From: Halorubrum lacusprofundi ATCC 49239
Lineage (GTDB): Archaea > Halobacteriota > Halobacteria > Halobacteriales > Haloferacaceae
Direction of reading: 5' to 3'
Assembly: GCF_000022205.1 (NCBI RefSeq)
Contig: NC_012029.1
Span: 2,480,001-2,544,000 of the forward strand
DNA: 64,000 bases
Below the pieces are notes generated by a model. The model had not been told where the DNA came from and did no database searches. It saw only the letters and a program-made list of their open reading frames with translations. The position numbers and the translations under genes were made by a program. Below, piece by piece: positions 26 to 47,218 of this stretch (position 1 is the first letter of the stretch; each line of letters opens with the position of its first letter).

Positions 26-338
26 CCTCCAAAGCCCCAGCCGCTCGCTTATAAATAGCTGACCGGAGATCGACGGCGAGGACCTCCAAAGCCCCAGCCG
101 TGAGGCGTCCAGACACTCGCTGCGCTCCTCGTCACTCGTTCGACTCGTTCCTGCGGTGCTTGCGTCGTCTCTGGGCGCCTCACGGTTGCCCCTTTGAGTC
201 CCGCCCCGCACAGCGACCGCAGCCTCACGCCTCCCCAGCCTCGTCGCTGGCGGCGATCGCCGCCAGCGACTCCCTCGCGCGTGCTACTCGGCCGCGAGGC
301 GGCCTCGCAGGCACGCGCCAACCGCATTCATTTATAAA
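26..338 (-). repeat. Dispersed haloarchaeal element, copy A (with an extra 3' block)
   Basis: Read on the minus strand, a TATA box (plus-strand TTTATAAA, 331-338) is followed by a conserved block (plus-strand CTCGCAGGCACGCGCCAACC, 304-323), then about 200 bp of variable GC-rich sequence, then a block reading GGCTGGGGCTTTGGAGG (83-100). A second 3' block lies at 26-43, just behind another TATA-like TTATAAAT at 49-56. The same two conserved blocks recur at 45830-45911, and the 5' block alone at 24904-24938. An open frame (327 to 49) runs through it and starts MRLARACEA, but the variable centre makes a conserved protein doubtful. The stretch 345-520 holds nothing else I can recognise. Confidence 0.65.
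243..270. repeat. 28-bp perfect palindrome
   Basis: A perfect inverted repeat without spacer: the half-site GTCGCTGGCGGCGA is followed by its exact reverse complement. It lies in the variable middle of the dispersed element and could form a cruciform or RNA hairpin. Confidence 0.7.
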
Positions 339-526
339 TGGCCGTCGCTCAACCTCTCGTTTAAATATGCTCTCGTCGCCACCGATCTGCAATACCCACT
401 CCCGTCATCGATCAGAGAACACGCTCGGTGGCCGACCGCTTCGAACGAGAATCCGCTCGAAGAATCGGATTCCAACGGCACTACCGAGCCGGAGCTAGCG
501 CCGAAACCGCCACACCCGGCGTGGGG

Positions 527-33465: not shown

Positions 33466-33620
33466 ATCCTCCCCGGCGTAAACGCCGGGGCTTCCCGTAC
33501 CGCAGGTGGGATATTTGCTGGTTTACGATACAACCTGTTCTCTCGGGCGAACCGTCCCGCTCTCGCGGTCGAACAGGTGTACCGATGGCTGTGCCACACA
33601 GCCGTTACTCCTATCCTCTC
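33466..33620 (-). ncRNA. Candidate omega/reRNA at the right end of the IS element
   Basis: In IS1341-type elements of haloarchaea, sense overlapping transcripts from the 3' end of tnpB through the right-end hairpin are known and correspond to the TnpB guide RNA. Here the hairpin at 33471-33490 lies 32 bp past the tnpB stop. The guide would be read into the flank at about 33445-33465 on the minus strand. Transcript limits are inference. Confidence 0.4.
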
Positions 33621-34773
33621 CGTGAGGACTCGGAGTTATCTTCTGGCGCATGTTCTCCGCCCCGTTACAATCCGCATTGGCTACCAATTCACACGACGAA
33701 CACACGTACAATCCACGTTCGACACGGTTTGACGTCGTGTCGTCGCCACACCGTGAACACGTCTTCGAGGTGTCCCATTCGTTCTCTTTCAGTACTTCGA
33801 CTCCACGTTCTTCGCCCTTGTATTCGAGGTACTGGTAGATGCGATCGAACGCCCACGTGTGGAGTTTCTTGTTGCCGGTCTTCCCCCAGTCGGAGTCTCG
33901 AACGTCTTCAGGCCAGCTCACTGCCAGCGTTCCAACACCACGTTCGACACACTCTGTGATGATGGTGTCTGAGAGAACGTGGAAAAAGTGTGTCTCGCGG
34001 TCAGCAAGTTTTCTACGTGCCCACGTCGACTTGTTAGATGGGCCGTTTTTACCTTCCGTGTCGTACTCTGAACGCTTGAAGTAGTGTTTGTCCTGCTTGA
34101 TCGAGTTACCGGGATACAAGACGTATTCGTCCGGAAATGCGACCGTAGCGATGTTTGTGATGCCGAGGTCAATCCCCGCTACTTCATTTCCTGTGGAGTC
34201 GTTGGTTTTGAGCTTGACTTTACAGACGAAGTGTAGTTCCCACTCGTCACCGTTCCAGACCGCACGAACGTTCTGTACCGAGTTGACTTCTGAGAGATCA
34301 ACGTCAGGGCGGGTCTGGTATTCGCACAGCAGGAAATCCGACCAATACCCCTTGAGATTGGAACCTTTCGAGAGTCGGACGCGGTTGTTGTCGGGGTCGT
34401 GTTTGAACCCGTCTTCTTTGAATGAGACCGTACTGCGCGGTCGTTCGTCTCCGTGTTTGCGGTAGCCGGGAGGATTCGCCGTGTCGTCTTTCTGCCGCAG
34501 GTCGAACCATGACTGGAAAGCGTCAGAAAGTTCTTCAATGACTTTCTGACTCGATTGTGCGTTCAAGTCCTTCCAGCACGCTTGGTTCTTCATGTACGCT
34601 TTCAGAACGCTCACATCGGGAATTTTGCCAGTTTCGTCCCAGATGCGGTTCGCTGTCCACCGTGCGACGTTTCAGATTTTCGAGGCGGAATCACCGAGCA
34701 AATCCAGACCACTCTGTACCTGACGCTGGTTCTGTATGGAACCAATGTAGGTACGAGTAACCTGAATCGCCAT
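33523..34773 (-). pseudogene. tnpB: tnpB with a single in-frame stop
   Basis: The full frame is 416 codons from ATG 34773 (MAIQVTRTYIGSIQNQRQVQ). Codon 34 is TGA (plus-strand TCA, 34672-34674); the family context SASKI-W-NVARWTANRIW suggests it was TGG. The frame then continues without shift. RuvC residues are intact: Asp in AGIDLGITN, Glu in SWPEDV and Asp in NADCNGAENM. The zinc finger CSRCG/CSSCE is intact too. The N-terminal break would remove the first domain or require readthrough or internal start at 34614. TnpB is an RNA-guided nuclease. Confidence 0.85.
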
Positions 34774-45704: not shown

Positions 45705-45829
45705 ACCTCACACACCACGGAGTCAAGAACTATGAACGTTGTCATGGTTGATCGTGTACGTATGAGGTGGGTGATTTTGACTGCTCAGAGGTGCACCGAT
45801 AAGTATTGACACCGATCCGGCGGTGAACG

Positions 45830-45911
45830 CCTCCAAAGCCCCAGCTCGTCGCGGCCGTCGATGGCGACCGCTCGCAGGCGCGCCAACAGCACAGCAGCTA
45901 TGGTTGTAAAC
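45830..45911 (-). repeat. Dispersed element, copy B (short form)
   Basis: Minus-strand reading: TATA-like plus-strand TTGTAAACC (45904-45911), then plus-strand CTCGCAGGCGCGCCAACAGC (45871-45890), then the 3' block CCTCCAAAGCCCCAGC (45830-45845) on the plus strand. The variable middle is only about 25 bp. A tiny frame starts with MLLARLRAV and reads through the block. Confidence 0.6.
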
Positions 45912-45916
45912 CTCAA

Positions 45917-47218
45917 CTACCCTTTAAAAAGGCTCGCGTGAACCGGCGCGTGGTCCCGCTCGGGCCGCGCGGAGTCGTTACCCCCACCGCCGCCGTCATC
46001 GGAGACCGCCCGACCTCCGACCCCCTCCACGAGGAAGTCACGCAGCGGCGGGCCGACATGTTCGGGCTCGACGAGGAACGCGTCGTGGCCGTGATCGGAG
46101 TCGATCACGTGGTGGGCGACGGGGACATCCCGATCGCGGAAGGCGGCCGCAAGCGACGACGACTGCTCGACGGTGAAGTGCCAGTCGGCGGTAAAGCTCA
46201 TCAACAGCGCCTCGCCCTCGAAGGCGGCGAGCGCGTCGGCGTCGGTGCCGTGGCCGGCGGAGAGGTCGTACTCGTCCATCGCGCGCGTGAGGTAGAGGTA
46301 GCTGTTGGCGTCGAACCGCTCGCTGAACCCCTCCGCCTGATAGTCGAGGTACGACTCCACCTCGCGGTACGGGAAGAAGGCCGCCGTTGGCTCCGGCGGG
46401 AGACCCAAATCTCCCTCCTCGCGGGTCAGCGAGTCGCGGCCCGCCGAGCGACGACCGAACTTCCGCTCCATCGACGCCTTCGAGAGGTACATGATGTGCC
46501 CGATCTGACGGGCCAAGGCGAGCCCTTCGTCCGGCGAGGGGCGGCCCTCGCCGTAGTAGTTGCCCCCGTTCCAGTTCGGGTCCGCGCGGATCGCCCGCCG
46601 GGCGACCGCGTCGAGCGCGAGACACTGCGCGTCGAGGCGACCGGCGGTCGCGATGGCGACCACGCGGTCGACGTCGTCGGGGTAGCGCTTCGCCCACTCC
46701 AAGACGTTCATCCCGCCGACGCTCCCGCCGACGACGGCTCGGAGCCGGCCCACGCCGAGGTGGTCCAGCAGACGGCGCTGCGAGCGCGCCCAGTCCTCGA
46801 CCTGCACCGGCGGGAAGGCGGTCCCCCACCGGTCGTGATCGGGTTCCTCGGGGAGGTCGAGGTCGGCTGGGCGCTCGCTCGCCGGCCCCGTGGTGCCGTA
46901 ACAGGAACCGGGAACGTTCGCGCAGACGACGTAGTACTTCGTGGTGTCTATCGCCTTCCCCGGGCCGACGATGTCGTCCCACCACGCGCGGGCCTGTCCG
47001 GCCTGCCCGGCTCCGCGGGTCCCCTCGTTGCGCTCCGGCGCGGGCGACCGGGCGACGTTCTGGCTACCGGTGAGCGCGTGGCAGACCAACACCACGTTGT
47101 CGCCGTCGAACTCGCCGTGGGTCTCGTAGGCGACCTCCAGATCGGGGACCGACTGGCCGCACTCGAAGACGAACTCCCCGAGAGCGGCGACGCCGTGGTC
47201 GGTCGGAACGGTGCTCAC
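45917..47218 (-). CDS. metX: Homoserine O-acetyltransferase
   Basis: The protein has 433 residues. It makes O-acetylhomoserine for methionine synthesis. The alpha/beta-hydrolase features are the nucleophile elbow [17 protein letters not shown], the acid in [13 protein letters not shown] and His in [10 protein letters not shown]. It lies four bases after metY in the same operon. Some family members use succinyl-CoA; sequence here fits the acetyl type. Confidence 0.93.

Follow-up and report, generated by a model that had tools for sequence, protein, structure and literature searches.

ERIC (IRU) repeats are intergenic, imperfect palindromes of about 130 bp with a conserved structure, and integron attC sites combine conserved arms with a variable palindromic middle and fold on one strand. 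MITEs are short, noncoding and have terminal inverted repeats in common with an autonomous transposon. Among haloarchaea, the PATEs of Haloquadratum are transposase-free palindromic elements with divergent copies and a conserved terminal oligonucleotide; they have core-deleted derivatives and are targets of other small repeats (PMC3119063). REPINs, and the REP sequences associated with RAYT (Y1) transposases, are intergenic folding palindromes that occur in hundreds of copies and are dispersed in trans (PMC3116915). PATEs and REPINs are the nearest kinds to the element analysed here, which lies in a window of 64,000 nucleotides from Halorubrum lacusprofundi ATCC 49239 (NC_012029.1, positions 2,480,001 to 2,544,000) and is very probably a mobile structured repeat.

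The element resembles PATEs in each of the respects listed and, in its minimal form, likewise has near-terminal palindromes and a terminal oligonucleotide without terminal inverted repeats. However, PATEs have one targeting sequence whereas the element has TTATAA on both sides, and it has a multi-helix fold with strong covariation throughout and shows no link to IS605 ends. It shares intergenic position, high copy number and folding palindromes with REPINs, but is much longer and archaeal, and a RAYT/Y1 transposase was undetected in several carriers. By description, ERIC is like the long arm of the element (P3) alone in size and palindromic character, as well as in being intergenic; the element adds a 5' domain and the TTATAA borders. 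With attC sites it shares conserved arms, a variable palindromic middle and one-strand folding, although it is dispersed singly in the chromosome and not in cassette arrays. Like MITEs it is short and noncoding, its TTATAA may be duplicated, and a subset of copies has inverted ends of about 28 bp. In contrast to MITEs, terminal inverted repeats are absent from the minimal element, and no parent transposon or other kilobase-sized element with matching inverted ends was found in seven genomes; a MITE with an autonomous partner was rejected because the inverted ends occur there only as short pairs.

The preliminary description of the window had pointed to a repeated block together with a TATA box and a CGCG-rich 5' block, and these features are real: TTATAA lies at 332-337, the CGCG-rich block GCGGTTGGCGCG runs from 325 downward, and the block GGCTGGGGCTTTGGAGG has exact minus-strand copies at 26-42 and 83-99 and a further copy, differing by one mismatch, at 45830-45846. 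At up to three mismatches the window has four matches to GGCTGGGGCTTTGGAGG, where 0.08 would be expected. Exact copies of its 16-nt core number 34 genome-wide (reversed control, 0), and nearly all of these are the end of a much longer common unit, which runs from TTATAA through a hairpin-bearing GCGGTGGCGCG domain, a variable palindromic hairpin and a G-rich linker to a long arm starting with GGGACTCAAAGGGGCAGCC and ending with GGCTGGGGCTTTGGAGGTGTTCACC. A covariance model of 255 positions and 66 pairs was built from the consensus of eleven compact copies. Against the three sites originally proposed, there are a full-length copy at 75-325 (213 bits) and an eroded copy at about 45770-45925 that is recognised by its blocks, its match to the model not being significant (E 3.3); no convincing third site was found in the window by the model search, even with filters off. 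The blocks at 26-42 and 83-99 belong to one copy, the second of them arising from tandem repetition, in a 57-bp unit, of its 3' end. The linkage of the blocks was borne out in this genome and in congeners, and the dispersed minus-strand family with TATA boxes had been correctly perceived. The parts of the window copy are listed in Table 1.

Table 1. Parts of the element copy in the window, with associated features (window coordinates)
Feature	Position	Strand	Remarks
Whole minimal element, from TTATAA border to TTATAA border	49..337	-	289 bp (about 290 bp in the family)
Structured core, model R1 positions 1-255	75..325	-	213.3 bits, E 6.2e-49 (213.2 bits, filters off)
5' border TTATAA, the TATA box of the preliminary description	332..337		
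3' border TTATAA	49..54		
5' domain, helix GCGCGTGC/GCACGCGC around a hairpin with tandem G.A (CGAG...CGAG)	273..318	-	covarying pairs, helices 2-4
P2 hairpin, hypervariable, near-perfect palindrome (GTCGCTGGCGGC GATC GCCGCCAGCGAC)	240..270	-	helix 5
G-rich single-stranded stretch, conserved, GAGGCTGGGGAGGCGTGAGG...	206..240	-	invariant alignment columns
Long arm P3, GGGACTCAAAGGGGC ... GCTGGGGCTTTGGAGG	75..205	-	helices 8-18
Second copy of the 3' block, within a 57-bp tandem tail unit	26..42	-	like arrangement in loci L014, L033, L034 and L045
Inverted end of about 28 bp, GATCGATGACGGGAGTGGGTATTGCAGAT, around a subset of copies	385..413	-	partner just beyond the window (C2:2479919 onward)
Second A+T box TATTTAAA, read on the minus strand, 5' of the element in long-form copies	360..367		
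Eroded, core-deleted copy, 5' hairpin joined to 3' block	45770..45925	-	model E 3.3 over 45822-45990

A subset of copies, the window copy included, has a long form of about 450-500 bp flanked by the 28-bp inverted ends, and core-deleted forms also occur, for example at window 45770-45925 and at locus L002. Tandem tails of 57-bp units at the 3' end (window 26-99; L009, L040 and L066) repeat the 3' block in each unit, and in several copies the units have a TTATAA of their own. Many copies (L011, L013, L016, L017, L022 and L027) also hold nested palindromic inserts (CGCCGGCGGCTTTGCCGCCGGCTGC, CAAGCGAGAGCTTCGCTCTCGCCCTG, CAGAGGCGCTTCGCGCCTCGCTG), which are positioned so that the fold survives and resemble a second, smaller family of mobile palindromes.

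One proposal had been that the 5' block encodes short peptides beginning MRLAR or MLLAR. Some copies do have an ATG after the TATA box, and 21 of 47 have one near the start; nevertheless start codon, frame, length and sequence were all unconserved in these 47 copies (20, 14 and 13 copies in the three classes of element length modulo 3). The orphan peptide family is refuted by this absence of a conserved reading frame, and we give it virtually no credence.

What is conserved is a multi-helix fold of one strand, in which a 5' hairpin domain is followed by a palindromic hairpin that varies, a G-rich linker and the 130-nt P3. Across 91 aligned copies 95.8% of the paired cells were kept, compared with 82.0% after shuffling, two-sided changes were seen in 52 of the 66 pairs, and the covariation score was 0.392, compared with 0.156 for shuffled and at most 0.070 for slid versions; fitting to the model favours this alignment, but the margin over the slid versions is large. 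Paired positions held 596 G.U and 75 A.C combinations, and even with the constitutively wobble columns set aside there were several positions with 12-31 G.U and 0-2 A.C. Because G.U so far exceeds A.C, one strand folds, and the sense strand was predicted to be the more stable in all 82 copies compared with RNA parameters and in 81 with DNA parameters. Folding by a single strand therefore argues that selection does not act on a double-stranded cruciform. The deepest conserved module is P3, which occurs alone in other genera. The G-tracts at 206-240 (minus strand), together with a GGG/GGG internal loop in P3, might allow a G-quadruplex to form in a cytoplasm with molar K+.

A multicopy family of structured ncRNA genes would likewise show covariation and tolerate G.U on one strand; each copy would be driven by a TATA box (TTATAA, or TATTTAAA, which in long forms lies about 45 nt upstream) and its RNA would act in trans, for example by protein binding, with dispersal incidental. 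Such a family would account for the upstream TATA-like boxes, and RNA energy parameters recovered the fold better than DNA parameters (72% and 53% of core pairs, respectively), although the consensus itself was derived with RNA parameters. The position of the box speaks against it. In archaea a TATA box precedes the start of the RNA by about 26 nt, and TTATAA lies 12-15 nt ahead of model position 1, so that with normal archaeal spacing a transcript would start near model position 13-16, in the 5' strand of the first helix or immediately beyond it. An RNA from the element's own promoter is therefore unproven, as transcription from TTATAA would begin too late to include the first helix. Moreover, TTATAA is symmetrical and recurs at the opposite end, and the boxes therefore resemble borders of an insertion site no less than they do promoters.

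The loops of P3 point the same way. Its apical triloops were GNA in 39 of 64 cases and never TNC, and its apical tetraloops were GNYA in 18 cases, GNRA in three and UNCG in none. Hairpins of the cGNAg and cGNNAg types are exceptionally stable as DNA, and the P3 loops, which avoid GNRA and UNCG, look DNA-like rather than RNA-like. In addition, 85 to at least 150 divergent copies per genome, turnover of presence and absence, and core-deleted relics are unlike host RNA genes, and no Rfam family matched: in a search of Rfam 15 with the window and 20 copy-bearing loci, the families that reached threshold were tRNA and sot0042 alone, the latter elsewhere in the window, and the best weak match at the element, 22.9 of 70 bits, was far under it. 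We consider an ncRNA gene family unlikely. Since the loops are DNA-like and the TATA box is too near the first helix, we lean slightly towards single-stranded DNA over RNA as the acting form of the folded strand; a role as single-stranded DNA is an evenly balanced proposition, and a role as RNA a credible but somewhat doubtful one.

The borders and the insertion sites bear on mobility. Among 30 copies in this genome, TTATAA was found 12-15 nt upstream of model position 1 in 22 (24 nt in two of the copies) and in 23 it lay within 75 nt downstream, the commonest position being exactly +20, compared with a background of 3 per 60 kb at the same loci at least 500 bp away. The TTATAA borders hold for this genus; in the other genera that were looked at they did not appear. 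In the panB-DUF460 spacer of 30 congeneric genomes, ten had a model match, in both orientations, and the other 20 had none, some having short empty spacers and some eroded remnants. At a second locus the element starts at a TTATAA overlapping the upstream stop codon (TTA TAA), and is forward in some species and reverse in others; without the element, most congeners have CTGTAG, TTGTAG, TTGTGA or similar there. Empty sites carry TTATAA in some species only, and filled copies have it at both ends. Same-site copies in congeners were never the closest match to the copy in this genome (rank 2-23 of 30), a test weakened by saturation, of which the opposite orientations at one site are independent. 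The 30 paralogues in this genome had a mean identity of 71% and a maximum of 86%, and for that reason give no sign of a recent burst.

A passive ERIC- or REP-like repeat that forms mRNA 3' ends, or acts as a bidirectional terminator between convergent genes, and is selected by the host at each site would explain the long stable hairpins and the location of the copies, 18 of the 30 lying between convergent genes, two between divergent genes and none in a called gene (by a composition-based gene call). However, a terminator held in place by the host would not be expected in both orientations at one site that is empty in relatives, and a bidirectional terminator would not need a strand-specific G.U bias, so that we regard this explanation as rather improbable. 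Orientation relative to the replication strand was not significant in a runs test (p 0.26), and relative to oriC1 it was weakly biased (within 600 kb, 65 copies toward and 38 away; post hoc, p 0.01). Genomes G000, G278, G120 and G323 showed a weak tendency toward the orc1 origin on its downstream side (43 toward, 18 away, 600 kb; also post hoc).

The account that we favour, with moderate confidence, is of a non-autonomous mobile structured repeat of Halobacteriales that inserts at TTATAA and is moved by an enzyme acting in trans on the folded strand. Insertion would occur at (T)TTATAA(A), leaving a TATA-like site either duplicated or reused; either orientation would be possible because the target is palindromically symmetrical. 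The enzyme would recognise the folded strand, most simply as single-stranded DNA, by analogy with REPINs, IS200/IS605 ends and integron attC sites, and the structure would persist because only copies that fold propagate, rather than because of any service to neighbouring genes.

No candidate for the mobilising enzyme emerged. No Y1 transposase (IS200-type, Y1_Tnp), and with it no associated RAYT, was detected in the element-carrying congeners G004, G033, G044 and G068, while G060 has 10 Y1 matches and no match to the element; an obligatory Y1 partner was therefore rejected. Viral spread was likewise set aside, as no phage record matched; five haloarchaeal plasmids carry partial copies. The window does contain a TnpB (Cas12f1-like/OrfB_IS605) with its sot0042 RNA, at 33470-34614 on the minus strand, a unit unrelated to the element.

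If the copies were relics of IS605-type transposon ends (PATEs), or omega RNAs of stand-alone TnpB genes, this would fit the abundance of PATEs in Haloquadratum, with their near-terminal palindromes, terminal oligonucleotide and core-deleted forms (PMC3119063), the last of which are found in this family as well. We nevertheless think it quite improbable, because no Rfam sot model matched at the element, its right border is conserved where an omega RNA would have a variable guide, and Y1 transposase is undetected in some carriers; an omega RNA or IS605 end was rejected for want of any likeness to the one TnpB/sot0042 unit in the window. That a mobile repeat of the kind we favour represents a new class of archaeal mobile element, whose transposition substrate would be a multi-helix single strand of about 250 nt, in place of a transposase gene or terminal repeats, and which would be specific to the palindromic core of TTATAA sites resembling TATA boxes and inserted in either orientation, is a tentative and rather doubtful extension.

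The family is larger than the small one first supposed. At E<=0.01 the covariance model had 85 matches in this genome, and three congeners had at least 141-150 matches each at E<=1e-10. Matches were found in 224 of 293 genomes and 69 of 87 genera in an order-wide sample, and as a specificity control a phylum-wide sample of 295 genomes gave 42 with matches, all of them within the order of the window. Those in other genera retain AAAGGGGC...GGGGCTTT plus the P3 pairs, and the core motif is carried by Halobaculum, Haloarcula, Haladaptatus, Halovenus, Natrinema and Natronococcus, among others; scattered bacterial matches to the 15-nt core pattern are taken as chance. The preliminary description knew no published name for the element, and none was found, nor any description of such a repeat or RNA, in the open-licence literature. 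The family is thus apparently undescribed.

This structured element, which reaches 150 copies or more in a genome, has relatives in most genera of haloarchaea, and its fold is as well conserved as that of many RNA families; it is apparently without a name, a model or an annotation. It would give the archaea a counterpart of ERIC and REPINs, would account for a sizeable share of the palindromic, G+C-rich DNA between haloarchaeal genes, and would offer a direct test of folded single strands as transposition substrates beyond the known HUH systems. Divergently arranged pairs of the P3 arm, their cores separated by about 33-35 bp, are present in Haloarcula and Halomicrococcus (L159 3890-3970 and L227 7040-7120; also L162 and L198).
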